64,000 nucleotides of DNA from Hyphomicrobium sulfonivorans. GTDB lineage: Bacteria; Pseudomonadota; Alphaproteobacteria; Rhizobiales; Hyphomicrobiaceae. Position numbers and translations under genes: made by a program. Shown piece after piece: positions 38,644 to 57,953 of this stretch (position 1 is its first letter; every line of letters starts with the position of its first letter). Below the pieces are notes generated by a model. The model saw nothing but the letters and a program-made list of their open reading frames with translations, was not told the origin of the DNA and searched no databases. The stretch is taken from contig NZ_PZPO01000002.1 in assembly GCF_013306565.1 (NCBI RefSeq), positions 446,501 through 510,500 on the forward strand. The letters are read 5' to 3'.

Positions 38644-38727
38644 GCGTTCGCTGGCACTTTGTTGGTTCGCTGGCGACTCCCCTGCGGGGAGCCCGCCGCC
38701 AGCGAACGAAGGGGCCAGCGAACCAAC
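38644..38727 (+). repeat. Palindromic repeat locus 1 (after mtnA)
   Basis: Core copy 38665-38707: left arm GTTCGCTGGC, GA, inner hairpin CTCCCC-TGC-GGGGAG, then CCCGCC and right arm GCCAGCGAAC. An extra left arm (GCGTTCGCTGGC) lies upstream. An extra right arm GCCAGCGAACCAAC at 38714-38727 pairs perfectly over 14 bases with GTTGGTTCGCTGGC at 38661-38674. It begins 30 bases after the mtnA stop. Confidence 0.85.
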
Positions 38728-38740
38728 GAAAGAGCCTTTT

Positions 38741-39412
38741 ATGGGTGACAGTGCTGAGAGACTTGAGCGGGATGCGCGCCGCGAGGTGATCGCGACGGCG
38801 CTGGCGATGAGCCGCTCCGGTCTGTCGCCTGGCCGCTCCGGCAATGTGTCGTGCCGCTGGAATGACGGCATGCTGATAACGCCCAGCGGCATGGCCTATG
38901 AAGAAACCAAACCGCGCGACATCGTTTTCGTTGATGGCGACGGTAACGTGCCTGACGCCAAGGCGCGGAAACCTTCCAGCGAATGGCGCTTTCATCTGGC
39001 CGCGTATCGTGGGCGCGCCGACATTGGTGCTGTGGTGCACACCCATTCCCTGCACGCAACGGTGCTTGCATGCGCGCACAAATCCATTCCGCCGTTTCAC
39101 TATATGATTGCCGTCGCGGGCGGAAAGGACATCCCGCTGGTGCCGTATGACACCTTCGGCACCGATCAGCTGGCCGATTATGTGCAAGCTGGGCTGGCCG
39201 AGCGCGACGCATGCCTGATGGCAAATCACGGCCAGATCGCAGTGGGTCGGGATCTTCCAACAGCGCTTGAACTGGCGCACGAGGTGGAGGTGCTGAGCAC
39301 GCAGTATGCAAAGCTGCTCACCATCGGCGAGCCGCATTTGCTGACCGATGATGAAATGGAGCGCGTGCTGGAGCGCTTCAAAACCTATCGGCAGAACGCG
39401 CAGAACACTTAG
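38741..39412 (+). CDS. Class II aldolase/adducin-family protein, candidate 5-methylthioribulose-1-P aldolase
   Basis: A 223-residue class II aldolase. The family's phosphate- and zinc-binding parts are visible as LSPGRSGNVSCR, LITPSGMAYEE, SSEWRFHLAAYR, the HTHS zinc motif in VVHTHSLHATVLA, and a third His in LMANHGQIAVG. Homologues include fuculose-phosphate aldolase, MtnB dehydratase, and the Ald2 aldolase of the DHAP shunt. Next to mtnA and with mtnP nearby, Ald2-like cleavage of 5-methylthioribulose-1-phosphate to DHAP and a methylthio-aldehyde is plausible; MtnB is the alternative. ATG 38741 has a weak ribosome site. Confidence 0.8.
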   Translation: MGDSAERLERDARREVIATALAMSRSGLSPGRSGNVSCRWNDGMLITPSGMAYEETKPRDIVFVDGDGNVPDAKARKPSSEWRFHLAAYRGRADIGAVVHTHSLHATVLACAHKSIPPFHYMIAVAGGKDIPLVPYDTFGTDQLADYVQAGLAERDACLMANHGQIAVGRDLPTALELAHEVEVLSTQYAKLLTIGEPHLLTDDEMERVLERFKTYRQNAQNT

Positions 39413-39434
39413 AGCGCGTCAGCTTTTTTGATGG

Positions 39435-39519
39435 CGCTCAGCGACTCCTCTGCGAGGAGCCGGCCGTGGTTATTTGTTGCGCTCGGCGACTCCCCTGCGG
39501 AGAGCCGGCCGCCGAGCGC
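39435..39519 (+). repeat. Palindromic repeat locus 2 (after the class II aldolase), two units
   Basis: Unit a (39435-39470): GCGCTCAGC, GA, CTCCTC-TGC-GAGGAG, CCGGCC, with a degenerate right arm. Unit b (39479-39519): GCGCTCGGC, GA, CTCCCC-TGC-GGAGAG, CCGGCC, GCCGAGCGC. The link GGTTATTTGTTGCGC is nearly identical to one in locus 5. It begins 23 bases after the aldolase stop, between convergent genes. Confidence 0.85.
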
Positions 39520-39575
39520 GTAGCCGGCTCAGGTGACGCTGAACCGGCTGTCGTTGTTCGTTCAGGCGCGCAAAA

Positions 39576-40496
39576 TCAGTATTTCGCGGGCACGTACATT
39601 TCGCGCGGCACGGGATGGCGCTGATAATCCGGATGATGCGTGCGGGCGGGCAGAACCACCGGCTCGTGCTGTACTTCCTGATATGGAATTTGAGCAAGCA
39701 GATGCGCGATGCAGTTCAGGCGCGCGCGCTTCTTGTCGTCGGCCTCAACCACCCACCAGCGCGCTTCCGGGATGTTGGTGTGTTCCAGCATCTGCTCCTT
39801 GACGCGCGTGTAGTCTTCCCAGCGGATGCGCGATTGCAGATCCATCGGGCTTAGCTTCCACTGCTTCAACGGATCGTCGATGCGACGCGTGAAGCGGAAA
39901 TGCTGCTCTTCGTCGGAGATCGAGAACCAGTATTTGATGACGGTAATGCCCGAGCGCACGAGCATCTTTTCAAATTCGGGCACCGAGCGGAAAAATTCCT
40001 CGACCTCGTCTTCAGTGCAGAAGCCCATCACGCGTTCGACGCCGGCGCGATTGTACCAGCTGCGGTCGAACAGCACGATTTCGCCGCCGGCAGGCAGGTG
40101 CGAGACGTAACGCTGGAAATACCACTGCGTACGTTCGCGCTCGCTGGGGGCAGGCAAAGCGGCGACCCGGCATACACGCGGATTGAGGCGCTGGGTGATG
40201 CGCTTGATGGCGCCGCCTTTGCCGGCTGCGTCGCGGCCTTCAAACAAGACAACAACTTTAAGCTTATTGGCGACAACGTGATCCTGCAGTTTCACCAGTT
40301 CGCCCTGCAGGCGGAACAGCTCTTTGAAATAGAACGCTCGCTCGATGCCTTCCGACAGGGAGCCAGCGCCTTCAGTGACGCCTTCCGACAGGCGCTCCAT
40401 GCGGATGTCGTCCAGTTCCATCTCCAGCTCTTCATCCAGGCTGTCGATCAGATCCGCGCGGGCACGTGCGTCGTAGTTCTGCGATGTGCTGGTCAC
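39576..40496 (-). CDS. ppk2: Polyphosphate kinase 2
   Basis: A 306-residue PPK2-family kinase transferring phosphate between polyphosphate and nucleoside diphosphates. The Walker A-like motif is FEGRDAAGKGG (about residues 86-95) and Walker B is IVLFDRSWYNRAGVERVMGFC. The family lid and C-terminus are seen in WKLSPMDLQSRIRWEDYT and EARWWVVEADDKKRARLNCI. The GTG start at 40496 has only a distant GGGGAA. A CCTATATAG -10-like element lies ~55 bases upstream in a small palindrome. Divergent from tdh. Confidence 0.94.
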   Translation of the reverse strand: MTSTSQNYDARARADLIDSLDEELEMELDDIRMERLSEGVTEGAGSLSEGIERAFYFKELFRLQGELVKLQDHVVANKLKVVVLFEGRDAAGKGGAIKRITQRLNPRVCRVAALPAPSERERTQWYFQRYVSHLPAGGEIVLFDRSWYNRAGVERVMGFCTEDEVEEFFRSVPEFEKMLVRSGITVIKYWFSISDEEQHFRFTRRIDDPLKQWKLSPMDLQSRIRWEDYTRVKEQMLEHTNIPEARWWVVEADDKKRARLNCIAHLLAQIPYQEVQHEPVVLPARTHHPDYQRHPVPREMYVPAKY

Positions 40497-40548
40497 GGGT
40501 TTGGAGTTCCCCAGGTCAGGTTGCGAGCAAAGCCGGTTTTATGCAGGC

Positions 40549-40560
40549 GCCTATATAGGC
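40549..40560 (-). promoter_or_regulatory. Probable -10 of ppk2 within a palindrome
   Basis: GCCTATATAGGC is a 12-bp palindrome containing CTATAT, the usual alphaproteobacterial -10 sequence, 53 bases upstream of the ppk2 start. Confidence 0.5.
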
Positions 40561-40607
40561 TGCGCTCCATGACAGATTTGCGAAGGCGGCATGCGGCGCT
40601 CCTTCGC

Positions 40608-40627
40608 GGGGGTGGTGCACCACCCCC
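40608..40627. promoter_or_regulatory. Perfect 20-bp palindrome in the ppk2/tdh intergenic region
   Basis: GGGGGTGGTGCACCACCCCC is a perfect inverted repeat. It directly follows a stem GCGAAGG / CCTTCGC (about 40580-40607) and lies 113 bases before tdh. It could be a regulator binding site or a hairpin. Confidence 0.5.
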
Positions 40628-40740
40628 ATAACGGCCAGGAGCGGAACTTTGTTCGCCGGCAATGAACACGCACGCAAAGTGAACGCTGTGTCTATCGAGA
40701 TATTTATAGTTTTCGCGTTCAATGCGGGCAGGAGGCTCGT

Positions 40741-41721
40741 ATGGGGAACATCCTCGTCACCGGGGCGCTCGGCCAGATCGGATCGGAACTGGTGCCTGCG
40801 CTGCGCGCTGAGTATGGCCGCGATCGCGTCATCGCGACCGATCTGAAAGTGTTGCCGCCTACGGGAGCGGAAGCGCTGGCGCCTTACGATCATCTCGATT
40901 GCACCGATCCGCACCAGTTGCACGAGGCGGTGCGCCGCCACGACGTTTCTACCATCTATCATCTCGCGGCATTGCTTTCAGCTTCGGCGGAAGCCGCGCC
41001 GCAGTTTGCATGGACGGTTAACATGAGCAGCCTTTACAACGTGCTGGAAGTGGCACGCGGCTATGGCTGTCAGGTATTCTTTCCCAGTTCGATTGGCGCG
41101 TTCGGCCCGGATACGCCGCGCGATATGACACCGCAGGTTACGGTGCAGCGGCCGACAACGATTTACGGTGTGACGAAAGTTTCCGGCGAACTGCTGTGCG
41201 ATTATTACGCTTCGCGTTTCGGCGTCGATACGCGGGGCTTGCGTCTGCCAGGGCTGGTGTCATATGCGGCGGCGCCCGGTGGCGGCACCACAGATTACGC
41301 GGTGGAGATGTTCTGCCACGCGGTTCGCTATGGCCAGTACACCTGTTTCCTTGCGCCCGATACGCGGCTCGACATGGCGTACATGCCCGATGCCATCGAC
41401 GGGATGATGCGGCTGATGGCAACGGATGCAGGCAAGCTGCGCTATCGCAACGCCTACAACATCACCGCGATGAGCGTGACGCCGGAGGAGATTGCCGCCG
41501 CGATATGCGCGCACATGCCCGGTTTCGAGATCGACTATGAGATCGATCCGGTGCGGCAGGCGATTGCCGATAGCTGGCCGCGTTCGCTGGATGACAGTGC
41601 AGCGCGCGCAGACTGGGGATGGTCGCCGAAATTCGATCTTCACGCCATGGCGCGCGATATGCTGCTGCGCCTCGGCGAAAAAATGAAGCCGGCGCGCCAG
41701 CGCGTTGAAGCCCGCCGTTGA
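40741..41721 (+). CDS. tdh: NAD-dependent epimerase-type L-threonine dehydrogenase
   Basis: A 326-residue short-chain dehydrogenase/epimerase-fold protein with N-terminal NAD motif VTGALGQIG (residues 6-14) and catalytic Tyr-x3-Lys at 142-146 (TIYGVTKVSGE). Features such as PSSIGAFGPDTP, GLRLPGLVSYAAAPGGGTTDYAVEMF and TRLDMAYMPDAI match the short-chain L-threonine 3-dehydrogenase group, distinct from zinc-dependent Tdh. It oxidises threonine to 2-amino-3-ketobutyrate. The next gene, kbl, 21 bp downstream, completes the pathway. A strong AGGAGG precedes the ATG. Confidence 0.9.
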   Translation: MGNILVTGALGQIGSELVPALRAEYGRDRVIATDLKVLPPTGAEALAPYDHLDCTDPHQLHEAVRRHDVSTIYHLAALLSASAEAAPQFAWTVNMSSLYNVLEVARGYGCQVFFPSSIGAFGPDTPRDMTPQVTVQRPTTIYGVTKVSGELLCDYYASRFGVDTRGLRLPGLVSYAAAPGGGTTDYAVEMFCHAVRYGQYTCFLAPDTRLDMAYMPDAIDGMMRLMATDAGKLRYRNAYNITAMSVTPEEIAAAICAHMPGFEIDYEIDPVRQAIADSWPRSLDDSAARADWGWSPKFDLHAMARDMLLRLGEKMKPARQRVEARR

Positions 41722-41742
41722 GTTCTGCTGATTGAGGTTGCC

Positions 41743-42987
41743 ATGCCGATCGATAAACTGACGCCTTTGCTGGACAAAAAACTGCATGAGCTTGCAGCGT
41801 CAGGCCGCTTGAAGGGCGATGAAACCGTCACCGTTGGCATGGTTGAGCCGGCTGACGGCAAAGGCCCGCGCTATCTCATTGAAGGCCACGGCAACCGTCC
41901 GTTTCTGCGCATGAACTCGAACAGCTATCTGGGGCTGTCGTTCGCAACGCGTGTGCTGGAAGCTGAGGAGGAAGCGGTGCGCCGCTACGGGTCCGGGCCG
42001 GGCGCTGTGCGCTTTATCTCGGGCACGTGGGCGCCGCATGTGAAGCTGGAGAAGCGTCTTGCCGATTTTCACGGGCGCGATGCAGCGATGCTGTTCTCGT
42101 CCGCATATGCCACGGTGATGGGGGTGCTGCCGCAGCTCATCACCGACAGCACGCTGGTGCTCAGCGATGCGCTCAATCACAACTCGATCATCAACGCGAT
42201 TGCGCTGTCACGTCCGGCTGAGAAGCGCGTCTACGACCATCTCGACTACAACGAGATCATGCGCCAGCTTGGCGCCTTCACCAAGAAGTGCAAGCGCGCG
42301 GTCATCGTGTCGGATGGAGTGTTCAGTATGCGCGGCGATCACGCGCGTCTTGATGAACTGATGCGGTTGGCGAAGCTGTTCCACCCGCTTTACGCCGAGG
42401 GCGTGATTGTCGTCGCGGACGATTCCCACGGTGTCGGCGCGTTCGGCAAAACCGGGCGCGGCACTGAGGAAGTATGCGGCGGGGCGCATGTCGATGTGCT
42501 GATCGGCACGCTGGGCAAGGCGTTTGGTGTCAACGGTGGTTATGTCACCGCAGCAACATCCATCATCGACTATCTGCGCGAGACGTCGCCATTCTATATC
42601 TACTCCAACCCCATCACGCCGGGTGAGGCTGAGGCTGCGCGCGTTGCCGTCGACCGCGTGGACAGCGCCGAGGGCGAAGGCTTGCTCGCGCATCTCAGTG
42701 CGATGGGCGTGCGCTTCCGCAATGGGCTTGCAAAGCTTGGGCTGGAAACAATCCCCGGCGAGCATCCAGTTGTGCCGCTGATGGTGCGCGATACCGAACG
42801 CACGAAACAGCTCGTCGCTCACCTGCGCGACAGCGGCATTCTGGCGACGGGGCTGGCCTATCCGGTGGTGCCCAAGGGCGAGGACGAAATCCGCTTTCAG
42901 ATTTCGGCCGACCATACCGGCGATGACATCGATGCGGCACTTGCCGCATTGGCAGCTTTTGCCGAGGCGCATGCGGCCACGGCATAA
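41743..42987 (+). CDS. kbl: Glycine C-acetyltransferase (2-amino-3-ketobutyrate CoA ligase)
   Basis: A 414-residue PLP enzyme of the alpha-oxoamine synthase family that cleaves 2-amino-3-ketobutyrate with CoA into glycine and acetyl-CoA. Visible: NSNSYLGLSFATRV, SGTWAPHVKLEKRLADFHGRDAAMLF, the Asp/His of VVADDSHGVGAFG, and the PLP-lysine motif IGTLGKAFGVNGGY. Its place right after tdh, with similar codon use, supports the threonine-degradation role over 8-amino-7-oxononanoate synthase. Confidence 0.92.
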   Translation: MPIDKLTPLLDKKLHELAASGRLKGDETVTVGMVEPADGKGPRYLIEGHGNRPFLRMNSNSYLGLSFATRVLEAEEEAVRRYGSGPGAVRFISGTWAPHVKLEKRLADFHGRDAAMLFSSAYATVMGVLPQLITDSTLVLSDALNHNSIINAIALSRPAEKRVYDHLDYNEIMRQLGAFTKKCKRAVIVSDGVFSMRGDHARLDELMRLAKLFHPLYAEGVIVVADDSHGVGAFGKTGRGTEEVCGGAHVDVLIGTLGKAFGVNGGYVTAATSIIDYLRETSPFYIYSNPITPGEAEAARVAVDRVDSAEGEGLLAHLSAMGVRFRNGLAKLGLETIPGEHPVVPLMVRDTERTKQLVAHLRDSGILATGLAYPVVPKGEDEIRFQISADHTGDDIDAALAALAAFAEAHAATA

Positions 42988-43028
42988 CCCCCGCACCTTG
43001 GCCGTCACGCGGACACAGTCAGCGCCGA

Positions 43029-43265
43029 TTACATGCGATCCTTGAAACCGATTACGTTATTTTGCGCTGCGCAATGCGCACAGCAAAAGATCTTGCCGTC
43101 CGCGGACTCGACGCCGTGGCCGATGACGCGGCAGTTGCAATGCTCGCAGCGCGGCGCCATTGCCGATATTGCGCATTCGAAGCTGTCGAATGTCATGGTC
43201 TTGCCGGCCCGCGTGATCTGAAAGGTCCTGTCGTAATCGTTGCCGCATGTATCGCAGACAGCCAT
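43029..43265 (-). CDS. Small Cys-rich zinc-binding protein
   Basis: A 78-residue protein with CDTCGN near the N-terminus, SFECAI in the middle, then CEHCNCRVIGHGVE and CCAHCA. The four cysteine clusters suggest two zinc sites (a metallothionein-like or treble-clef fold). Similar short proteins are widespread in bacteria without a defined function. GGAGG lies five bases before the ATG. A second small gene on the same strand starts upstream (43449), 25 bp away, so they are probably cotranscribed. Confidence 0.75.
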   Translation of the reverse strand: MAVCDTCGNDYDRTFQITRAGKTMTFDSFECAISAMAPRCEHCNCRVIGHGVESADGKIFCCAHCAAQNNVIGFKDRM

Positions 43266-43290
43266 GGCGTCCTCCGTATTAGCTTCCGTA

Positions 43291-43449
43291 TTAGCTAAAG
43301 ATCAGCGCGCCAATAAATGGCAGCGCAATCATGCCGATCAGACCGGCGATGAAAACGATGCGCTGGGTGCGGGTTTTCAGGATCATCTCGCCCTGCCGCG
43401 CCTTTTGCGCCGGATAGTTCTGCAGATCATCCGTGGTCGGGCGAGCCAT
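43291..43449 (-). CDS. 52-residue single-helix membrane protein
   Basis: The reverse strand from ATG 43449 to TAA 43291 encodes 52 residues: a polar N-terminus (MARPTTDDLQNYPAQKARQG) followed by EMILKTRTQRIVF and a hydrophobic helix (IAGLIGMIALPFIGALIF). A strong AAAAGGAG box lies six bases upstream. It is too short for most gene finders, but the ribosome site, the coherent topology and the adjacent co-oriented Cys-rich gene support it. Function unknown. Confidence 0.7.
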   Translation of the reverse strand: MARPTTDDLQNYPAQKARQGEMILKTRTQRIVFIAGLIGMIALPFIGALIFS

Positions 43450-43772
43450 GGCGCGCTCCTTTTCTCAGGGTTGATCGCTATTGATGGCCAACGTTTGCGG
43501 GGGCGGACGGTTCCGGATCGGGCCAATACTGGACGTTGGCCATCGCCGGCTATGGCGGGGCGTAACCGCCGGGTTCTCACTGAACTTGACCGGGATCAGG
43601 TTTCTGCGGCCTGTCCGGGGCCGGTTGCCGGCCGGATCGGGGAAACCCTACCCCGTCGATGCGGTTATGCACGCTGCAGGTACTATTGACGGACCTGCCG
43701 GGGCTGGCCCTCTGGGCGTTTTGGCGCTAAGTCCAGCCGGTAGAATTATGCCTTCCTATGCGAGGAATGTTC
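43450..43772. other. 323-bp structured region upstream of the class I aldolase
   Basis: A 12-bp perfect inverted repeat (GATGGCCAACGT at 43483-43494 / ACGTTGGCCATC at 43533-43544) is followed by a hairpin AACTTGA-CCGGGA-TCAGGTT (43583-43602) and a run of GC-rich complementary segments to about 43660. A GACGGACCTGCC stretch and the RBS of the aldolase follow. No coding sequence is supported. It could be an operator plus structured 5' leader. Confidence 0.5.
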
Positions 43773-44807
43773 ATGACTGAAGAGCTTGCAAAGATCGCCC
43801 AGGCCATGGTTGCTCCCGGAAAGGGCATCCTCGCCGCCGACGAGAGCTCTGGAACTATCAAAAAGCGCTTTGATTCCATCGGTGTAACATCAACCGAGGA
43901 CTCGCGCCGCGACTACCGCGAGATGCTGTTCCGCGCCGACGACGCCATGAAGAACTATGTGTCCGGCGTCATCCTGTATGACGAGACCATCCGCCAGAAG
44001 GCCAAGGACGGCACGACGCTGGTTGATGTCATGAAGGCCGCGGGCTCCATTCCGGGTATCAAGGTTGACACCGGCGCCAAGGCGCTGGCTGGCCGCAATG
44101 CCAGCATCGAAACCGTCACCGAAGGCCTCGACGGCCTGCGCGAGCGGCTGGCTGAGTATCACCAGCTTGGCGCCCGTTTCGCCAAGTGGCGTGCGGTCAT
44201 CACCATCACCGACAGTCTGCCGTCGTGGAACAGTGTGAAGGCTAACGCCCATGCGCTGGCCCGTTATGCGGCGCTGTGCCAGGAAGCCGGCATCGTTCCG
44301 ATTGTTGAGCCGGAAGTGCTGATGGATGGCGCCCACGCCGGTCACACGATCGAGCGCTGCTATGACGTCACCGAGTGGACGCAGCGTGTCGTGTTCCAGG
44401 AACTGTATGACGCTGGCGTCGCGCTGGAAGGCATGGTGCTGAAGCCGAACATGGTCATCGCCGGTCAGAAGTGCGCCAAGCAGGCATCGCCCGAGCAGGT
44501 GGCCGAGCTGACGGTGAAGTGTCTGAAGTCGACCGTGCCTTCAGCCGTGCCGGGCATCGCGTTCCTCTCCGGTGGCCAGAGTGATGAGCAGGCGACGCAG
44601 AACCTGTCGCTGATCAACGAGATCGGCGATCTGCCGTGGAAGGTCACGTTCTCCTATGGCCGCGCGCTGCAGGCCGCCGCGCTGAAGGCCTGGGGCGGCA
44701 AGGCTGAGAATGTCGCTGCCGGTCAGAGCGCATTTACGCACCGCGCCAAGATGAACTCGCTGGCTGCTCTGGGGCAGTGGAAGCAGAATCTGGAAAAGGC
44801 AGCGTAA
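43773..44807 (+). CDS. fda: Class I fructose-bisphosphate aldolase
   Basis: A 344-residue class I (Schiff-base) aldolase interconverting fructose-1,6-bisphosphate with DHAP and glyceraldehyde-3-phosphate. Landmarks: GKGILAADESSGTIKKRF, FAKWRAVI, GIVPIVEPEVLMDG, and the Schiff-base lysine in EGMVLKPNMV, with LSGGQSDEQAT near the phosphate site. ATG 43773 is preceded by GAGGA at eight bases. A terminator follows 38 bases after the stop. It has a long, structured upstream region. Confidence 0.95.
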   Translation: MTEELAKIAQAMVAPGKGILAADESSGTIKKRFDSIGVTSTEDSRRDYREMLFRADDAMKNYVSGVILYDETIRQKAKDGTTLVDVMKAAGSIPGIKVDTGAKALAGRNASIETVTEGLDGLRERLAEYHQLGARFAKWRAVITITDSLPSWNSVKANAHALARYAALCQEAGIVPIVEPEVLMDGAHAGHTIERCYDVTEWTQRVVFQELYDAGVALEGMVLKPNMVIAGQKCAKQASPEQVAELTVKCLKSTVPSAVPGIAFLSGGQSDEQATQNLSLINEIGDLPWKVTFSYGRALQAAALKAWGGKAENVAAGQSAFTHRAKMNSLAALGQWKQNLEKAA

Positions 44808-44844
44808 CGGTTTTCGCTGCAACATTCCGCAGGTTTGACCATCG

Positions 44845-44883
44845 AAGACGTTTCGCGCTCCAACGCGCGGAACGTCTTTTTTG
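44845..44883 (+). terminator. Terminator of the class I aldolase
   Basis: AAGACGTT ... AACGTCTT with an inner CGCG/CGCG pairing, followed by a run of T. Confidence 0.88.
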
Positions 44884-45096
44884 TTAGAGCGTTTTTAATG
44901 CCGGGAGCACTCCGGCGCCGCGCCCGGCCTGATGGGATGGTCGGTTGCCTGAGGGCTGCGTGGCCGATCCTGTACCCGTGCGCTCAATCGGAATGCATTT
45001 GATTTGGTATTGCGCGGGCTTTGTTGTCCCCCCATTTACGCGCGTCTGTAATTTTTGCTCCGGCAGAATCCCTGCCGATACTCCCTGGAGATACTC

Positions 45097-45531
45097 ATGC
45101 ACGTTACGATGAAGAGTGCCTTGGCCGCCATCGAGGCTGCCCGCAAGGAAGCCGTGAAGCTGAAGACGCAGATGTGCATCGCGGTCGTCGATTCCGGCGC
45201 CAACCTGAAGGCGTTCGTGCGCATGGACGATGCGTGGGTCGGCTCCATCGACATCGCGATCAAGAAGGCCAAGACGGCGGTCTATTTCGGCATGCCCACG
45301 GGCGAGATCGGCAAGCTTTCGCAGCCGGGCGGTTCGCTGTTCGGCATCGAGCATTCCAATGACGGGCTCATCACCTTCCCCGGCGGTCTGCCGATCGTCG
45401 ATGAGGAAGGCGTGCTTGTCGGCGCCATCGGCGTTTCGGGCAGCTCGGTCGAGAACGATCACAAGGTTGCCGCCGCCGGCCTCAAGGTTGTCGGTATCTG
45501 CGATCTGCCGCAGCATCCGTGGCGGACTTGA
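45097..45531 (+). CDS. GlcG/HbpS-family (heme-binding-like) protein
   Basis: A 144-residue protein of the GlcG/HbpS family ([72 protein letters not shown]). The fold is known from HbpS, a heme-degrading sensor partner, and from GlcG and PduO-C proteins. No signal peptide is present, so it should be cytoplasmic. A GGAG box lies six bases before the ATG. It is isolated, followed by repeat locus 3 five bases after its stop. Confidence 0.87.
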
Positions 45532-45535
45532 TTGG

Positions 45536-45628
45536 CTGGCGCGGGCGACTCCGCTGTACGGAGCCGGCCGCCAGCGCATTTTAAGTTAGCGCTGGCGACT
45601 GCCCTCCGGTTAGCCGGCCGCCAGCGCT
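45536..45628 (+). repeat. Palindromic repeat locus 3 (after the HbpS/GlcG gene), two units
   Basis: Unit a (about 45536-45577): degenerate left arm, inner CTCCG-CTGTA-CGGAG, CCGGCC, GCCAGCGC. Unit b (45588-45628): AGCGCTGGC, GA, CTGCCC-TCC-GGTTAG, CCGGCC, GCCAGCGCT; its inner stem has decayed while the outer arms remain perfect. Confidence 0.85.
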
Positions 45629-45644
45629 GGTTGGTATGACAAAC

Positions 45645-45678
45645 AAAAAGGCGGGGCTGCAAAGCCCCGCCTTTTTTT
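45645..45678 (+). terminator. Bidirectional terminator between the HbpS/GlcG gene and the exported hypothetical
   Basis: AAAAAGGCGGGGCT ... AGCCCCGCCTTTTT with a four-base loop. Confidence 0.9.
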
Positions 45679-45731
45679 ATGTGATGACGCGAAATGGTGA
45701 GTGCGTGGAGGCAGGCGAATGCTGCCTCGTC

Positions 45732-46055
45732 TCACAGCTTCTCGACGCTGTCGGCCATGTTACCGACGACGCGAACGCGATACTCGGCGTTCTCGCAGGT
45801 CAGAATCCAGACCGGCTCGTCAGCCCGCGAAGCAGCAGGATCGCGCTTTGCCCCCGAAGGGTTCTTGCACTCATAGCCCTGCTTGCGGATCTGTACCGCG
45901 AGGATGTCGGCGGGGATCTCTTCGTTGGCGACGGTGGTGGTCGAAAGTTCGGCCACCTGCTGTGCCTGGGCGCTGTCCATACCGCCGGACGTGGCGGCGT
46001 TGAGAAACAAACCTGCACCCAAAGCTAACACTGGAAACAAAGCCAGCTTTTCCAT
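45732..46055 (-). CDS. Small exported protein of unknown function
   Basis: About 107 residues. A signal peptide (MEKLALFPVLALGAGLFLNAA) precedes a ~75-residue mature part containing two cysteines (GYECKNPSG and LTCENAEYRVRVVG), which could form a disulfide. No family is recognised. ATG 46055 is chosen; a TTG two codons upstream has better spacing from the GGGGAG box and is equally possible. The downstream end meets the shared terminator. Confidence 0.65.
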   Translation of the reverse strand: MEKLALFPVLALGAGLFLNAATSGGMDSAQAQQVAELSTTTVANEEIPADILAVQIRKQGYECKNPSGAKRDPAASRADEPVWILTCENAEYRVRVVGNMADSVEKL

Positions 46056-46106
46056 CGGCAACCCAACTCCCCGCCATGTTACGCGTCTAAATCGCTTGCA
46101 ATCCGA

Positions 46107-46706
46107 TCAGCGGGCAGCAGGCACAGCCTTGTCGTGCTCGCTCTTCCCCGCCAGAGCGAGGAAAATATAGCTCCAACCGGAGAACAGAAGGTTGATGCCG
46201 ACCAGAAGACCGAGCGCCCACGTTGCCGAACCCGGCAGGCCGAGTGCGATCAGTACACCGACGGCGATGGCGGCGATGCCCGACAGCAGCAGCCAGAACC
46301 AGCCTTCATGCGGGCTGACGCGATAGGCCATCACGATCTCGAAGATGCCTTCCGCGATGAAGAGCGCGGCAAGCACGACGGCGAGAGTGAGCAGGCCGGT
46401 GAGCGGGAAGAAGGCGAGATAGCCGCCGACGATCAGATACAACGCGCCGATAATCAGCTCCCACAGGAAGCCCGACCACTGCGGAGCCTGGAAGGCATGG
46501 AATACCAGCAGCGCGCCGCCGATGAGGAACAGCCAGCCCAGCATGATCTTGGCGGCGATGGTGGAAACCAGCGGGAACGCGATGGCGGCGATGCCGGCGA
46601 TGATGAGGCCGATGCCGAGTGCGAGGAACCAACCCCACTTTTCAGAGATCAGTGCCTTCGTTTCGGCGACGCGCATTTCCATTTCCGGAACTGTAAGTGA
46701 AGCCAT
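46107..46706 (-). CDS. HdeD-family membrane protein
   Basis: A 199-residue protein with six predicted membrane helices in the HdeD arrangement (WGWFLALGIGLIIAGIAAIAF, then MLGWLFLIGGALLVFHAFQ, ALYLIVGGYLAFFPLTGLLTL and three more). HdeD proteins are associated with acid resistance in enteric bacteria; the role here is not known. ATG 46706 is supported by GGAGG eight bases upstream. It is upstream of, and on the same strand as, the small exported protein, 51 bp apart. Divergent from the ThiE-like gene. Confidence 0.88.
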   Translation of the reverse strand: MASLTVPEMEMRVAETKALISEKWGWFLALGIGLIIAGIAAIAFPLVSTIAAKIMLGWLFLIGGALLVFHAFQAPQWSGFLWELIIGALYLIVGGYLAFFPLTGLLTLAVVLAALFIAEGIFEIVMAYRVSPHEGWFWLLLSGIAAIAVGVLIALGLPGSATWALGLLVGINLLFSGWSYIFLALAGKSEHDKAVPAAR

Positions 46707-47079
46707 GAGGATGTCCTCCCGTTGCGACAGATGTCGAATAGAGCCAGGCCGAGGAACCCGAGCGGACGGCAAATTTGGCGTGCGCCATCGCGATCGCTTC
46801 CGGGGCCGATCGGGGACAGCATGCCACTTGCGGGTTGAGTTTTTGGCGCTGCGGAGGTGCTAAATGGCTTCGAATGTCCCGCGATTTTTTTACCCGCGCT
46901 TAGGATGCGAGAAGGCTCTGAGCGCTTCTGGATGCGCAGGCAACCTGTGGTAGAGTGGCGTTGTGTCCCTGCCCAAAAATCCGCGATGGGTGTGGCCGCG
47001 ATGGATTGCCATTTGGAGGGGTCGCTTTTCCGCCTTATTGAGCCCTATTAGGCTTCAGCTGGCGGGATTGGAAAAGGCG
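46707..47079. other. 373-bp divergent intergenic region
   Basis: It separates HdeD from the ThiE-like gene. The frame of the latter is open back to a GTG at 46963, but the extra residues are Trp/Arg-rich and unlike the family. No other feature recognised. Confidence 0.5.
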
Positions 47080-47742
47080 ATGGCACGGCAGGATCAGGAA
47101 CAGGATCAAAAGGATGGGCCGGCGCTGTGCGTGGTCGTGACGGCCGGGTCGAGCCACGATGCGCTGGCCGACGTGCTGAAGCGCGCGCATCCGGCGAGCG
47201 TCATCATCGCTCCTTCAGATAGCGAGCCGCTCACGGCTGCAAACGCGCGGCCGCTGGTGGAGCTGGTGCAGTCGCAGGAAATCGCCGCGCTGATTTATGG
47301 CGATGCGCAGCTGGCCCGCACGTTGCGTGCTGATGGTGTTCATCTGCCCTGGCATCAGGACGTTGTGGCGCAGTATGGCGAGGCGCGCGATATTCTCGGC
47401 ACGCGCTACATCGTCGGCATCGATGTCGGTCGCTCGCGCCATGATGCGATGACGCTGGCCGAGGAAGGCGCCGATTATATTGGCTTCGGTATTCCCCCCC
47501 ATGTCGAGGATCGCGAAGCAGCAGGCAACCGCCGCCGCGAACTGGTGGCCTGGTGGAGCGAGATCTTCGAAGTGCCGTGCATCGCGCTGGATGTTGAGAC
47601 GCCGGAGGAAGCGGAAACGCTGTCTGCAGCGGGTGCCGATTTCATCGCGCTGGTGCCGTCATGTGCGTTGACGGCGGATGAGTTTGCGACGCTTCGCGAC
47701 GCCATTGTTGCGGCGGCTCCGGTGCGCGAGGAAGTGGCATGA
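47080..47742 (+). CDS. ThiE/TenI-like TIM-barrel protein
   Basis: A 220-residue protein with the thiamine-phosphate-synthase/TenI barrel pattern: VVVTAGSSHDALADVL, LARTLRADGVHLPWHQD, IVGIDVGRSRHDAMTLAEEGADYIGFGIPP, and a C-terminal strand FIALVPSCALTADE. The catalytic box normally read as VHLGQxD is VHLPWHQD, and the N-terminal QLR-type pyrophosphate motif is not seen, so it may be a TenI-like paralogue without synthase activity. ATG 47080 is preceded by GGAAAAGG. It overlaps the Sel1 gene by four bases. Confidence 0.72.
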   Translation: MARQDQEQDQKDGPALCVVVTAGSSHDALADVLKRAHPASVIIAPSDSEPLTAANARPLVELVQSQEIAALIYGDAQLARTLRADGVHLPWHQDVVAQYGEARDILGTRYIVGIDVGRSRHDAMTLAEEGADYIGFGIPPHVEDREAAGNRRRELVAWWSEIFEVPCIALDVETPEEAETLSAAGADFIALVPSCALTADEFATLRDAIVAAAPVREEVA

Positions 47743-48908
47743 AGCAGCGGCGGCGTCATCGCATCGTCAGGCAGGTGTGTGCATGGCCGCCGCAAGGTGT
47801 GCGTGCACGCCGCTTGGTGCGTATGACTGCGCGGGCGCCGCTTTGCAGCCTGTTGGCGATGACGGCAGTTCTGTTTGGAGCCGCACCGCCGCTGAGTGCT
47901 GACACCAGCTCGTGGATCATGAAGTCCACCGAGGTGCCAAAGCCAAATAGCGGCAAGCCGGTGAAGGTGGCGCCGAACGAAAAGTTCGCCAAGCCCGCGC
48001 AATCTGCCCAGCCAATTCCGCAGGCGCAGGGCAAAGGCTTTGGTGAAAAGCTGCTGGCGGAGCCAAGCGGCGATGAGGCGCCCTATATCGCTTTCGATCA
48101 GGGGCAATATCTCACCGCTGCGAAGCTGGCGCGCGAGGCCGCAACGAAGGGCGATCCGCAGGCCCATACGCTGATGGGCCGGCTTTATGCTGAAGGCCTC
48201 GGCGTCAGCAAGGATCTTTCGACCGCCATCAAATGGTATGCCCATGGCGATGAGTTGGGAGACGTGCAATCCACGTTCGCGCTTGCGGTGCTGCTGGCCG
48301 AAGGGCGCGGCGTGAAGAAAGACCGCAAGCTATCCGCCGAACTGTTCGAGAAAGCGGCGCGGCAGGGCCATCCGCAAGCCAACTACAATCTTGGGCTGCT
48401 GTTCATGAAGGGCGACGGCAAGCCGCAGAATCCATATCGTGCTGCGATGCATATTCGTTACGCGGCCGAGAAGGGCGTTGCTGTTGCGCAGTACGATCTC
48501 GCCAGCATGTATCAGAACGCAACCGGCGTTGAGCCGAGCGCGCTGGAGGCTGCTCGCTGGCTGAGCAAGGCGGCGGAGCAGGGCATGCCGGAGGCGCAGT
48601 TCGACTATGCGGTGGTGCTGCTGCGTGGGCTGGGGCTGACCAAGGACGAACCGAAGGCCATTCCTTATCTGCACACGGCGGCCCAGAAGGGGCTGGTGGC
48701 GGCGCAGAACCGGCTGGCGCACGTTTACGCGCAGGGCGTGGGCGTGAAAAAGGACCCGAAGGAAGCAGCGAAGTGGCGCTTCATCGCCCAGGCGGGCGGG
48801 CTGAAGGACGAGGAGCTCGACGCCTTCGTTGAAAAGCTGCCCAAGGCGCAGCGGTTGGCTGCGCAACAGGCCGCGATGGAATGGCGCGAAGACGCCGGCA
48901 TGTTCTAG
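47739..48908 (+). CDS. Exported Sel1-repeat (TPR-like) protein
   Basis: A 389-residue protein with an Arg-rich N-region and hydrophobic segment (LCSLLAMTAVLFGAAPPLSAD) as signal peptide, then about six Sel1 repeats from residue 125 on (AHTLMGRLYAEGLGVSKDLS, ANYNLGLLFMKGDGKPQNP, and further copies) ending in KWRFIAQAGGL. Sel1-like repeats mediate protein-protein contacts. The ATG overlaps the ThiE-like stop (ATGA) with AGGAAG upstream, indicating translational coupling; ATG 47823 is an alternative start nearer the hydrophobic core. Repeat locus 4 follows. Confidence 0.85.
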   Translation: MKQRRRHRIVRQVCAWPPQGVRARRLVRMTARAPLCSLLAMTAVLFGAAPPLSADTSSWIMKSTEVPKPNSGKPVKVAPNEKFAKPAQSAQPIPQAQGKGFGEKLLAEPSGDEAPYIAFDQGQYLTAAKLAREAATKGDPQAHTLMGRLYAEGLGVSKDLSTAIKWYAHGDELGDVQSTFALAVLLAEGRGVKKDRKLSAELFEKAARQGHPQANYNLGLLFMKGDGKPQNPYRAAMHIRYAAEKGVAVAQYDLASMYQNATGVEPSALEAARWLSKAAEQGMPEAQFDYAVVLLRGLGLTKDEPKAIPYLHTAAQKGLVAAQNRLAHVYAQGVGVKKDPKEAAKWRFIAQAGGLKDEELDAFVEKLPKAQRLAAQQAAMEWREDAGMF

Positions 48909-48920
48909 ATTTGCTTTTTC

Positions 48921-49005
48921 GCACCGACGACTCCCCGGTGGGAGCCGGCCGCCGTGTTTTTAGGTCGCGCTGGCGACTCTCCTCCGGAGAGCCGGCCGCC
49001 AGCGC
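48921..49005 (+). repeat. Palindromic repeat locus 4 (after the Sel1 gene), two units
   Basis: Unit a (48921-48956): CTCCC-CGGT-GGGAG, CCGGCC, partial outer arms. Unit b (48967-49005): GCGCTGGC, GA, CTCTCC-TCC-GGAGAG, CCGGCC, GCCAGCGC, a perfect copy. It starts 12 bases after the Sel1 stop. Confidence 0.87.
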
Positions 49006-49202
49006 TGATTGGTGCGCGCTCCTCCTTCTCCGAACGGTATTTCGCCAACCGTTCTTAATCCTGTACTGACGCCTGAAGTTTAGACTTCCTTTTGCATTTC
49101 TCGCCCGCAGCGGCCGTTCGCGCCCTTGCCACAGCAGTCTGCAAGGGTTACTCGGGCCGTCCGTGCCGGAGGGTCGGCCCGCTCGCCAAGGATTTTCGCA
49201 CC

Positions 49203-49994
49203 ATGCCCGCTTCAGCGCTTATGAACGTGATGATCGGCGCCGCCCGCAAGGCCGGGCGCAGCCTCAGCCGCGATTTCGGCGAGGTGGAGCAGTTGCAGGT
49301 GTCGGTGAAGGGGCCGGGCAACTTCGTTACCGCTGCCGATCTGCGCGCTGAAGAAATCATCTATCGCGAGCTGGCCAAGGCGCGGCCGGGCTATTCGTTC
49401 CTGATGGAAGAGCGTGGCGAGGTTGTCGGCGATGATCGCACGCACCGCTGGATCGTCGATCCGCTGGATGGCACCACCAACTTTCTGCATGGCGTGCCGA
49501 TGTTCGCCATCTCGATCGGACTGGAGCGCGAAGGCCAGCTTGTTGCGGGCCTCATATACAATCCGATTTCGGACGAAATGTTCACGGCCGAGAAGGGCAA
49601 AGGCACCTTCCTGAACGATCGCCGCCGTCTGCGTGTTGCGGCCCGCAAGCGGCTGTCGGATGCGTTGGTAACGACGGGCATTCCGCACATCGGCCGTCAG
49701 GGCCACGCGGTGTTCAAGCGCGAAGCCCATGCTGTATTTCCGCAGGTTGCCGGGGTGCGGCGCACGGGCTCGGCTGCGCTCGATCTCGCCTGGGTCGCTG
49801 CCGGGCGCTTCGATCTGTACTGGGAGCGCGGCATCAAGCCGTGGGACATGGCGGCCGGCATCCTGATGGTGCGTGAGGCGGGCGGTACTGTCACAGATCT
49901 TTCCGGCGCTAGCGATATGCTGGTCCATGGCGAAGTGGTGGCCTCCAACAGCGCCCTGCATAAAGAATTCCTGCCGCTCATCGCCGCCGGTTGA
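49203..49994 (+). CDS. suhB: Inositol monophosphatase family protein (SuhB)
   Basis: A 263-residue Mg-dependent phosphatase. The metal-binding motifs are FLMEERGEVVGDD, WIVDPLDGTTNFLHG and KPWDMAAGILMVREAGG. Family members hydrolyse inositol-1-phosphate or related sugars, and SuhB also affects rRNA transcription in enteric bacteria. The usual start is ATG 49203, but the frame is open to TTG 49092 and the intervening sequence encodes an ATAVCKGY peptide shared with the region upstream of the HerA-like gene, so the true N-terminus is uncertain. The MotA/MotB-like pair follows. Confidence 0.92.
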   Translation: MPASALMNVMIGAARKAGRSLSRDFGEVEQLQVSVKGPGNFVTAADLRAEEIIYRELAKARPGYSFLMEERGEVVGDDRTHRWIVDPLDGTTNFLHGVPMFAISIGLEREGQLVAGLIYNPISDEMFTAEKGKGTFLNDRRRLRVAARKRLSDALVTTGIPHIGRQGHAVFKREAHAVFPQVAGVRRTGSAALDLAWVAAGRFDLYWERGIKPWDMAAGILMVREAGGTVTDLSGASDMLVHGEVVASNSALHKEFLPLIAAG

Positions 49995-50134
49995 GGCACG
50001 AATAACGCTGCCCGGTGTGGCTGAGATGCGCTTTATGTAGCGCCGGGCACGATGTTGCCCGGTTTGTGCTGTCATTGGCTTCGGGTATTGTCGCGGGCTG
50101 GTAAAATTTTGAAGCGGCGGGTCGGAGCTCGGGG

Positions 50135-51190
50135 ATGGCAAGACGACGCAAGAATGAAGCGAGCGGATCGGCGCTGGGGCATCGGCCATTGACGCCGCCG
50201 GGTGTGTTTCTCATCCGCATGCTCATCTTTTTGACGCTGGTGGCGTTCCTCGTTGCCATTCTGCACAAGCAACTCATCGAGAGCTTCCTGCACAACCCTG
50301 GCCTCAACGGTCTGATCGTTGGCGTGCTGGCGCTGGGCATCATCTATGCGTTCCGGCAGGTCATCCGGCTTTATCCCGAAATCCGCTGGGTGAATGCGTT
50401 CCGCATCGCTGATCCGGGGCTCGCCATTGCGCATCAGCCGGTGCTGCTGGCGCCGATGGCGGCGATGCTGCGCGATCGCACCGGCGCGCTGTCGCTCTCC
50501 ACCGCATCGCTGCGGTCGATTATGGATTCCATCGGCTCGCGCCTCGATGAAGCGCGCGACACGGGGCGGTATCTCGTTGGCCTCTTGGTGTTCCTCGGTC
50601 TGCTCGGCACCTTCTGGGGTCTGCTTGAAACCCTTGAATCGGTTGGCGGTGCCATCGATTCCATCGACACCAACGCCGCCGACAACGTCACCATGTTCTC
50701 CGACCTCAAGGCCAGCCTGTCCGCGCCGCTGAAGGGCATGGGCACGGCGTTTTCGTCATCGCTGTTCGGTCTCGCCGGTTCGCTCGTGCTTGGCTTTCTG
50801 GAACTGCAGGCCAGCCACGCGCATAACCGCTTTTACAACGAGCTGGAGGAATGGCTGTCTGGCATCACCGAGCTGACACCGGGATCGACCGGCTCGTCGG
50901 ATCAGGTGAACCGCCAACTCTCCACCGCCATCCTGCACATGCAGCGCGCGGTTGAGGACCTCTCCAACCGGCTATCCGATCAGGCTATGGCGGGTGCGTT
51001 GGGTGGTGGCGGCAGTGCGGGCAGCGAAGAGCAGCTGCGCGAGCTTGCCCGTGGCGTTAATCAGCTCGTGGCCCAGATGCGCGCCGAACAGAAGGTGGTG
51101 CGTGAGTGGGTCGATGAGCAGGCCGGTCAACAGACCGAGCTGTCGAAGACGCTGAAAGAGCTTTCCCTCAACCTGCAACGCCGGAGCTAG
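50135..51190 (+). CDS. MotA/TolQ/ExbB-like proton-channel protein
   Basis: A 351-residue inner-membrane protein with about four hydrophobic helices (about residues 26-47, 55-75, 145-165 and 205-225) in the MotA/TolQ/ExbB pattern; the hallmark GLLGTFWGLLETLESVGGA and GMGTAFSSSLFGLAGSLVLGFLEL correspond to the channel helices. A Gln/Glu-rich C-terminal helix follows. With the next gene it forms the pair often called MotA/ExbB plus MotB/OmpA in Rhizobiales. No flagellar genes are nearby, so cell-envelope work is more likely than motility. RBS GGAG seven bases upstream. Confidence 0.88.
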   Translation: MARRRKNEASGSALGHRPLTPPGVFLIRMLIFLTLVAFLVAILHKQLIESFLHNPGLNGLIVGVLALGIIYAFRQVIRLYPEIRWVNAFRIADPGLAIAHQPVLLAPMAAMLRDRTGALSLSTASLRSIMDSIGSRLDEARDTGRYLVGLLVFLGLLGTFWGLLETLESVGGAIDSIDTNAADNVTMFSDLKASLSAPLKGMGTAFSSSLFGLAGSLVLGFLELQASHAHNRFYNELEEWLSGITELTPGSTGSSDQVNRQLSTAILHMQRAVEDLSNRLSDQAMAGALGGGGSAGSEEQLRELARGVNQLVAQMRAEQKVVREWVDEQAGQQTELSKTLKELSLNLQRRS

Positions 51191-51193
51191 CCG

Positions 51194-52222
51194 ATGGCGG
51201 GCGGGCGATCGCGGCGGCGCGCGGAGTACAACGATTTCTGGCCCGGCTATGTCGACGTTCTGTCGACGCTGCTGCTCGTCGTCACGTTCCTGATGTCGAT
51301 CTTCATGCTGGCGCAGTATTTCGCCGGCCAGGAAGCCAGCGGCAAGGACAGCGCGCTGCGCCAGTTGACGCTGCAGATCACCGAACTCACCAACCTGCTG
51401 TCGCTGGAGAAGGGCAAGAGCAAGGAGGCGCTGGATGAGATGGCGGCGCTTCAGGCCACGCTGTCCAGCCTGCGCGCCGATAACAGCCGCCTGTCCGGTT
51501 CTGCGCTGTCGGGTGATGAAGCCGCCAAGTCAGCCGATGCGCGCATCTCCGGGCTCACCATCGAACTCGAAAACCAGAAGAAGGTTTCCGATGAAGCACT
51601 GGCTAAGGTTGACCTGCTGAACCAGCAGCTTTTGTCGCTGCGCCGGCAGATCGCGGCGCTCAACGAGGCGCTGGAGGCATCTGAAAAGAAGGATGCCGAA
51701 AGCCAGACGCGCATCAAGGATCTGGGCGCCCGCCTCAACGCAGCCCTCGCGCGGCAGGTGCAGGAGCTGCAACGCTATCGCTCCGACTTCTTTGGCCGCC
51801 TGCGCGAGCTGCTGCGCAACCGCAAGGACATTCGCGTTGTCGGTGACCGCTTCGTGTTTGAATCCGAAGTGCTGTTCCCCTCCGGCTCCAACCAGCTGAC
51901 GCCCGAGGGCCTGGCCGCCATGGACCAGCTCGCCTCGGCGATCATCGAGCTGGAAAAGGAGATCCCGAAGGAGATCGACTGGGCGTTGCAGGTGGATGGC
52001 CATACCGACATCCGGCCGATCAACAGCCCGACGTTCCCATCCAACTGGGAGCTATCGACGTCGCGCGCGATCGCTGTGGTGCGTTATCTCGCCAGCCGTG
52101 GCGTGCCGCCCGAGCGGCTGGTGGCGGCGGGCTTCGGCGAGTTCCGACCGCTGGAAGCTGGCACCGACGAGCTGAGCCTCCAACGCAACCGCCGTATCGA
52201 GCTGAAGCTCACCAATCGCTAG
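51194..52222 (+). CDS. MotB/OmpA-type peptidoglycan-binding protein
   Basis: A 342-residue protein with one N-terminal membrane helix (VDVLSTLLLVVTFLMSIFMLAQYF, about residues 20-43), a long coiled coil (about 55-190), and a C-terminal OmpA-like domain (DGHTDIRPINSP, then ELSTSRAIAVVRYL and GFGEFRPLEAG). It begins three bases after the stop of the MotA/ExbB-like gene, with GGAG inside that gene's 3' end, so they are translated together. It likely anchors a proton-driven complex to peptidoglycan. Repeat locus 5 follows its stop by 18 bases. Confidence 0.9.
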   Translation: MAGGRSRRRAEYNDFWPGYVDVLSTLLLVVTFLMSIFMLAQYFAGQEASGKDSALRQLTLQITELTNLLSLEKGKSKEALDEMAALQATLSSLRADNSRLSGSALSGDEAAKSADARISGLTIELENQKKVSDEALAKVDLLNQQLLSLRRQIAALNEALEASEKKDAESQTRIKDLGARLNAALARQVQELQRYRSDFFGRLRELLRNRKDIRVVGDRFVFESEVLFPSGSNQLTPEGLAAMDQLASAIIELEKEIPKEIDWALQVDGHTDIRPINSPTFPSNWELSTSRAIAVVRYLASRGVPPERLVAAGFGEFRPLEAGTDELSLQRNRRIELKLTNR

Positions 52223-52240
52223 CGCGATCTCTTTTGTTTT

Positions 52241-52382
52241 TGCACCGGCGACACCCCTGCGGGGCGCCGGCCGCCGGTGCATGATTGGCGCGGGCTGGCC
52301 CGCGGTGCTCCGCTGCGCGGAGCCGGCCCTGGTTGTTTGTTGCGCTCGGCGACTCTCCTTCGGAGAGCCGGCCGCCGAGCGC
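52241..52382 (+). repeat. Palindromic repeat locus 5 (after the MotB/OmpA gene), three units
   Basis: Unit a (52241-52281): TGCACCGGC, GA, CACCCC-TGC-GGGGCG, CCGGCC, GCCGGTGCA. Unit b (52308-52328): inner CTCCGC-TGC-GCGGAG and CCGGCC, outer arms degenerate. Unit c (52342-52382): GCGCTCGGC, GA, CTCTCC-TTC-GGAGAG, CCGGCC, GCCGAGCGC. Confidence 0.88.
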
Positions 52383-52520
52383 GTAACGGCTTGTGCGGAG
52401 GCAAGCCTCCGCGCAACGTCATCCCGACAACGGTCGAGATTCATGCCAGTTTGCGCGTTTGACCGGTTGCAGAAGAATGCAAGCACTGTCGTCGCGTCAG
52501 GCAATAAACGAAGCAGCGCA

Positions 52521-57924: not shown

Positions 57925-57953
57925 AAAAAAAGAGCCGCCCGTGAGGCGGCTCT
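57925..57953 (-). terminator. Terminator on the reverse strand, downstream of DUF1192
   Basis: AGAGCCGCC, loop CGTGA, GGCGGCTCT; on the reverse strand the stem is followed by seven T. It lies 311 bases downstream of the DUF1192 stop and 131 bases before rcdA. Confidence 0.85.

Follow-up and report, generated by a model that had tools for sequence, protein, structure and literature searches.

The closest described systems to the hairpin family treated here are the repetitive extragenic palindromic (REP) elements of bacteria and the resident inverted repeats whose arms are corrected by template switching. The hairpins were noticed as ten palindromic units in a 64-kb stretch of the Hyphomicrobium sulfonivorans genome (contig NZ_PZPO01000002.1; the whole stretch is called the window below), and they probably belong to a non-autonomous, REP-like family of repeats in Hyphomicrobiaceae that, as proposed below, is spread and reshaped at the replication fork.

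The GTAG-tagged REPs and REPINs, found chiefly in Gammaproteobacteria, resemble the hairpins in being short, high-copy intergenic palindromes that cluster and lie in convergent or tandem gaps. In addition, the REP of E. coli needs a bulge in its stem (passages of PMC8266576), much as the hairpin has an internal loop. Unlike the GTAG REPs, however, the hairpin carries no GTAG tag, is built in two storeys with an asymmetric loop, forms arrays mainly in one orientation, and comes with no REP-associated tyrosine transposase (RAYT) that could be found. A GTAG at the foot was sought in 122 copies and was present before the arm in 2 and after it in 7 (these and all later column and arm counts leave out the 28 of 150 copies whose match length is other than 35). 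The CGTC-tagged REPs (Di Nocera et al. 2013, in passages of PMC3733652), which occur mainly in Alphaproteobacteria, share with the hairpin this class of host, the intergenic location, and the lack of a dedicated transposase, but they are described as having an 8-9 bp stem with a 4-5 nt loop and a CCA-like tail, and a mainly head-to-head dimeric arrangement, a build and arrangement that the hairpin does not share. The CGTC tag was found in 2/122 copies, and the structure differs as well.

The hairpin family shows the general REP features, being a short, high-copy, extragenic palindrome, and fits neither the GTAG nor the CGTC definition. Caulobacter CIR repeats are also alphaproteobacterial and intergenic; they contain a GANTC site and exceed 100 bp, whereas GACTC is missing from 48 of the 122 hairpin copies. 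Template switching is reported to homogenise the arms of inverted repeats and to invert their spacers (PMC8604942) and to maintain hairpins (PMC8794818; both in abstract openings), and arm homogenisation and a spacer inversion, at 38.6 kb of the window, recur here; those cases are mutations of resident inverted repeats, whereas the present one is a dispersed family. No description of this hairpin was found in the open literature, as far as titles, abstract openings, and passages go (including PMC12306157), which is weak evidence of novelty. We read the family as REP-like and of a new structural type, a two-storey hairpin. It adds to the REPs a family with a distinct structure and no detected transposase, in a bacterial family with culturable budding members.

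Anatomy and Covariation of the Hairpin

One unit is about 50 nt long and contains, in order, a T-rich tract, the left of two outer arms that form 8-9 bp, GA, a 6-bp inner stem closed by TNC, CCGGCC, and the right arm. The hairpin thus has two storeys, separated by an asymmetric internal loop of GA on the 5' side and CCGGCC on the 3' side. Conserved positions span about -11 to +45 in the 122 full-length copies, with background level outside. GA is present in 115 of them and CCGGCC in 111, and in 12 an A.C replaces a T-A of the inner stem. The 11-nt stretch at the 5' foot contains TTTT in 57/122 copies, as opposed to 11/366 control stretches.

The original prediction held that arms and inner stems co-vary, and this is borne out well beyond shuffled controls. 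Among 35 distinct copies, a set partly picked for pairing beforehand, 96.2% of cells are paired (78.2% in shuffles), 9 of 12 pairs have changed on both sides, and the covariation score is 0.477 (0.144 shuffled); slid controls, too, are far exceeded. A less biased set consists of 50 of the 54 matches to a strict sequence pattern that leaves arm positions 4-8 untouched, and at each of these positions 46 to 49 of the 50 copies pair, where 22 to 39 would be expected. The four matches excluded for a length other than 35 comprise three with a longer loop and one (C6:1116525) with mismatched arms. Over all 122 copies, eight Watson-Crick arm pairs are formed in 77, and no mismatch is present in 88 if G-T is allowed; alignments with longer arms placed gaps within the arms and were left out of the counts. 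The 77 perfect copies contain 20 distinct 8-nt arms, three of which account for 56 copies. These arms differ in blocks, 143 of the 190 pairs among the 20 being 3-5 changes apart. The seventh arm pair is C-G or G-C in a ratio of 57 to 53, and it is unpaired in 4/122.

Compensatory change with fixed loops had been taken to suggest a structure under selection or a REP-like mobile element. The observation stands, but it is no proof by itself that the structure is selected, since template switching from one arm to the other produces such a pattern as well. When eight units were folded as single-stranded DNA, the inner stem was predicted in five and another fold in three, with z-scores from -6.0 to 0.0 and unit 4a (Table 1) no better than shuffles. 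A subfamily with the inner stem CTCTCC-TTC-GTCGAG was observed in six related genomes (G425, G426, G427, G428, G435, and G444); it is mispaired in the standard fold, yet several near-identical copies are present in G427.

Dispersal and Position Relative to Genes

A covariance model was built from 40 copies of the H. sulfonivorans genome, including six that lie in the window. In the whole genome (3.55 Mb, 14 contigs), it finds at least 150 copies, grouped in 90 clusters; this number is a lower bound, the 150 candidates scored having given a tally of 152 matches, and the counts below start from the 150 copies listed. The original prediction saw no unit outside 38.6-52.4 kb, which holds within the window; given at least 150 copies genome-wide, however, the family is not local, and confinement to one region is rejected. 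Single copies make up 48 of the clusters. The other 42 are multi-copy, and 34 of these have one orientation, so that the predominance of head-to-head dimers that marks the CGTC REPs is not seen. Successive spacings are 48-53 nt in 22 of 60 cases, 20 of these on the same strand.

The gene context rests on our own codon-score gene calls rather than on an annotation. Only four copies overlap called genes by at least 20 nt, and 146 do not. Two of the four (L249 2201-2235 and L175 2201-2235) lie inside strong reading frames for UvrA and ThiC, respectively, and in both cases the frame runs on through the copy, in a stretch between domains; REPs within repair genes have been reported (passages of PMC3733652). 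By type of gap, 49 of the 90 clusters are convergent, 33 tandem, 3 divergent, and 5 overlapping or at an edge, while among the gaps of 60-800 nt that contain no element, in the same loci, 21 are convergent, 120 tandem, and 52 divergent. The frequency of convergent and tandem gaps and the rarity of divergent ones are as in REPs. Between tandem genes, 22 clusters are in sense orientation, 9 antisense, and 2 mixed (two-sided binomial for 22 vs 9, about 0.03), and in convergent gaps the element is closer to its 5' gene in 26/43. Thus, the position after stop codons is strong and the sense orientation is a weak bias. The original prediction had all loci sense-oriented after stops, which survives as this bias among tandem clusters but not as a general rule, convergent gaps being uninformative. 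It had also named genome-wide copies without covariation, random orientation, and frequent location inside genes as observations that would speak against it; the copies are genome-wide but covary, their orientation is biased rather than random, and just 4/150 overlap called genes.

Unit Turnover in Relatives and the Proposed Mechanism

The covariance model finds copies in 52 of 103 Hyphomicrobiaceae genomes, representing 15 of 25 genera, and the strict pattern finds elements in 38 of the 103. In a sample of the order, 7/249 genomes have copies, one of these, with a single copy, lying outside the family Hyphomicrobiaceae; in a sample of the class, the strict pattern is present in 1/385, namely the H. 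sulfonivorans genome of this study. Named records with a strict core, among the matches listed, are Hyphomicrobium species and bins assigned to Hyphomicrobiaceae, Rhizobiales, and unplaced proteobacteria. Within the genus, the spread is patchy: under stricter filters, seven other genomes gave 64 matches in one, 2 and 3 in two, and none in four.

A close relative, G420, aligns with the window over 15.6 kb, at 91% overall, and pieces of 90-98% align elsewhere. At 39.4 kb, the two units of the window (2a and 2b) correspond to a single unit in G420. The array at 52.2 kb carries in G420 one more unit within the right arm of the first unit (5a) and a further one at its end. At 38.6 kb, the two genomes have the core in opposite orientations between the arms, and the left arm of the window, GTTGGTTCGCTGGC, is the reverse complement of the right arm of G420. 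The same arms also form a second, outer pair around the core of unit 1 (38661-38674 with 38714-38727), and the window version reads as an inverted copy of the G420 hairpin nested between the same outer arms. A spacer inversion with copied arms, as described for template switching, was thus found at one site. Of 14 further locus pairs, 13 could be aligned and one gave no flank; two loci (L213 and L214) are one site, and several pairs differ beyond unit number and were not scored. Unit differences are present at L189, L223, and L251, G420 lacking two units at L223, while at L196 and L234 the unit itself is common to both genomes. At 45.5 kb, the array of units 3a and 3b is absent from two relatives of the same genus, G417 and G418, in which the stop codon is followed by terminator-like sequence; here G421 and G423 gave only partial alignments, and three more distant genomes gave no pair of flanks. 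These comparisons provide whole-unit differences and one array absent from two relatives, and they define no target duplication.

Taken together, copy number, intergenic position past genes, patchy spread in relatives, and whole-unit differences from a close relative support a REP-like dispersed element, one of the two possibilities raised by the original prediction; to these are added arrays mostly in one orientation and the one core inversion. In the mechanism that we propose, the hairpin would fold in the single-stranded DNA of the replication fork. Template switching, or an enzyme that acts in trans or has since been lost, would then produce further copies of it in arrays and at new sites. 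Foldback replication would rewrite one arm from the other, allowing the arms to stay complementary while their sequence drifts, and copies would survive chiefly behind stop codons because they do least harm there. An effect of the hairpin on mRNA 3' ends is possible.

Several points weigh against this mechanism. Neither a transposase nor an excision product or a target-site duplication was found, so that movement to new sites is an inference, and elements present in the ancestor and later lost would give a similar picture. A core inversion was seen at one site, about a third of copies have imperfect arms, and some genomes multiply the CTCTCC-TTC-GTCGAG copies despite their mispairing in the standard fold. 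Simple multiplication of a few old variants would give block-wise differences among arms as well. Finally, recognition of the element by some protein is suggested by the near-fixed GA and CCGGCC, together with the occurrence of copies in 15 of 25 genera. Such a recogniser is proposed because template switching alone does not explain the fixed loops, and by analogy with the bulge required in the E. coli REP (PMC8266576, passages). Because a close relative has arrays that differ by single units, it becomes testable how REPs that lack a RAYT multiply and whether hairpin covariation arises from selection or from template switching.

Strand Polarity in Other Hyphomicrobiaceae

In several relatives, nearly all elements lie on one strand of the chromosome, which was unexpected and is the part most worth following. 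Six genomes from another genus of Hyphomicrobiaceae, closed or almost so, have strict cores on the plus and minus strands, respectively, of 1 and 40 (G429), 27 and 1 (G444), 18 and 1 (G427), 21 and 4 (G425), 18 and 6 (G428), and 25 and 9 (G424). Other genomes gave 33 and 4 (G426), 30 and 10 (G466), 9 and 32 (G463), and 8 and 8 (G435). The choice of these genomes was guided in part by a first count that looked one-sided. In G463, the 41 strict cores lie on 12 contigs, each with one strand, but a looser model finds copies on the other strand of its contig C1 as well. Counted as 5-kb clusters with mixed ones dropped, the polarity has p values from 2e-10 to 0.02 (G463 entered this test with 40 elements). 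In G425, G427, G429, and G444, the distribution is better described by a single domain than by two equal replichores; in G424, the two descriptions fit about equally well. In the region of G429 from 1.0 to 2.4 Mb, where base skew is weak or opposite, 13/13 strict cores are still on one strand.

GC skew was sampled in 20 evenly spaced 10-kb stretches per genome. Its mean is +0.025 in G444, -0.019 in G429, +0.025 in G424, and +0.038 in G427 (4.2, 2.6, 5.2, and 5.2 standard errors from zero, respectively), and in all four its sign is that of the element strand. The sign matches in 15, 14, 17, and 17 of the 20 samples, in the same order, and the extreme single values in the opposite direction are -0.015, +0.041, -0.026, and -0.011. 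About a third of the G444 chromosome has a skew close to zero, and the stretch of G429 from 1.1 to 2.3 Mb has a weak skew, mostly of the opposite sign. Skew at fourfold sites, averaged over both gene strands, is +0.085 (G444), -0.106 (G429; no genes were called in 2 of its 20 samples), +0.113 (G424), and +0.140 (G427). In E. coli, whole-chromosome GC skew is near zero; eight stretches used as a control gave a pooled value of -0.017 with both signs present, too few for a clean contrast. In H. sulfonivorans itself, strand and GC skew are unrelated, with 38 clusters on the G-rich strand and 44 on the other (8 mixed ones dropped), and the idea that element strand follows skew in this genome is rejected.

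In other work, skew of a single sign was interpreted as a mark of one-way replication or of adjoining origin and terminus (passages of PMC7143001), and unidirectional replication of chromids has been measured (passages of PMC7858055). It could be speculated that the elements insert or are rebuilt on one kind of fork strand, and that their one-strand distribution records a replication that is mostly one-way all round the chromosome, or an origin and terminus far from opposite, an idea we consider rather unlikely to be right. The link of skew and polarity to replication direction is only suggestive, coming from small samples with a noisy control. If chromosome-wide polarity did reflect replication direction, this would be very surprising and would run against the usual rule of two replichores.

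Alternative Explanations

The units might instead be RNA structures under selection, the transcribed hairpin protecting the 3' end of the upstream mRNA or timing its decay. The position past stop codons, the avoidance of divergent gaps, the excess of sense over antisense clusters (22 to 9) between tandem genes, and the strong covariation would all fit. However, 9 of the 31 tandem clusters with one orientation are antisense, unit number differs from that in a close relative, and four of the seven other genomes of the genus have no model match at E 1e-4. Furthermore, several relatives carry nearly all copies on one strand when their sampled genes lie on both. Such a role is unlikely to be the main explanation.

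A classical REP mobilised by its own RAYT, a Y1 transposase, would resemble the hairpin in size, copy number, the mismatched loop in the stem, and the position 3' of genes. Y1 enzymes act on the lagging-strand template (passages of PMC6006769), which could give strand polarity. The original prediction proposed looking for such a transposase, and a search with PF01797 yielded no match in the H. sulfonivorans genome, although the same search was positive in 5 of 14 control genomes, including E. coli and Caulobacter. Within the family, PF01797 matches 14 of the 103 genomes, and 4 of these 14 have strict-pattern elements, in comparison with 38 of 103 overall. The surroundings (1.8-3.4 kb) of ten of the 19 Y1 matches listed from family genomes contained three loose pattern matches and none with the hairpin. 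Among 12 of the 14 genes enclosed between neighbouring clusters (6 outside the window and 6 of 8 inside), no transposase was recognised, 8 belonging to ordinary families and 4 having no Pfam match. With GTAG before the hairpin in just 2/122 copies besides, a RAYT-driven REP finds no support and seems quite improbable, as compared with the non-autonomous family favoured above.

It is more doubtful still that the hairpin is a DNA-level signal read by the cell, such as a methylation site or a target of a nucleoid or segregation protein. The near-fixed GA and CCGGCC, the one-strand polarity in several relatives, and the GANTC site GACTC in 74/122 copies would be in keeping with it; against it stand the 48 copies that lack GACTC, the absence of any relation to base skew in H. 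sulfonivorans, the equal strands in G435, and the lack of a match in about half of the Hyphomicrobiaceae genomes. A GANTC methylation element is rejected on the 74/122 count.

Lastly, the hairpins lie directly past stop codons as intrinsic transcription terminators would, but this explanation is rejected as very improbable, because the T-tract precedes the hairpin (TTTT lies within 12 nt 3' of it in just 7/122 copies) and the 45.5-kb array stands between the stop and a separate terminator, with terminator-like sequence also present in the two array-less relatives, and one unit (4a) is among the 13 terminator-like sites found, in comparison with 12.2 expected by chance.

Units and Neighbouring Features of the Window

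When the window was scanned with the covariance model without filters, ten matches were obtained (E <=2.7e-4), all at the places of the ten units originally described, the six used to build the model matching by construction; the next-best match has 17.4 bits (E 0.088). All ten units are thus present, with the correction that three (39442, 48923, and 52308) are degenerate (Table 1). The layout of arm, GA, 6-bp inner stem, 3-nt loop, CCGGCC, and arm is as the original prediction gave it; the loops that it gave as constant are near-fixed over the copies but not invariant, unit 1 having CCCGCC, and the unit at 52241 has A.C in its inner stem in place of T-A. A distance of 5-30 bases from the stop codon, claimed for all five loci, fits four, where the first unit begins 4-22 nt past the stop, but not the first locus, where it is 50 nt.

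Table 1. Hairpin units of the window and the adjacent terminator, with covariance model (CM) scores.
Feature	Coordinates	Strand	Description	CM match
Unit 1	38661..38727	+	Core hairpin 38665-38707; arms GTTCGCTGGC/GCCAGCGAAC; loop CCCGCC	51 bits at 38669-38703
Unit 2a	39435..39467	+	Degenerate, without right arm	30.8 bits at 39442-39466
Unit 2b	39479..39519	+	Arms GCGCTCGGC/GCCGAGCGC	56.7 bits
Unit 3a	45538..45578	+		48.1 bits
Unit 3b	45588..45628	+		51.4 bits
Unit 4a	48921..48959	+	Degenerate arms	27.6 bits at 48923-48957
Unit 4b	48966..49006	+		57.8 bits
Unit 5a	52241..52281	+	Arms TGCACCGGC/GCCGGTGCA; inner stem with A.C instead of T-A	56.2 bits
Unit 5b	52308..52328	+	Degenerate, core only	27.8 bits
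Unit 5c	52342..52382	+	Arms GCGCTCGGC/GCCGAGCGC	58.6 bits
Intrinsic terminator	45645..45676		Downstream of units 3a-3b, outside the element; 14-pair stem, T-run on either strand	

The strong terminator of Table 1 is also downstream of an HbpS-like gene. A doublet, consisting of a core without right arm followed by approximately GTGGTTGTTTGTTGCGCTCGGCGACTC, recurs with small differences at 39442-39487 and 52308-52350 of the window and at three other loci (L020, L021, and L214), and may be a larger copying unit. Beside the fifth array, the sequence CGTCATCCCGACAACGGTCGAGATTCATGC at 52417-52446 (+) resembles a CGTC-type REP of Alphaproteobacteria and would represent a second repeat family; its perfect core motif was counted 12 times on the two strands in 379 kb of other loci, palindromes being counted twice. 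No hairpin unit matched Rfam 15 above the gathering score, and the sole match in the window lies elsewhere, at 57925-58062 (-), where the alphaproteobacterial small RNA BjrC1505 is found with 64.7 bits.

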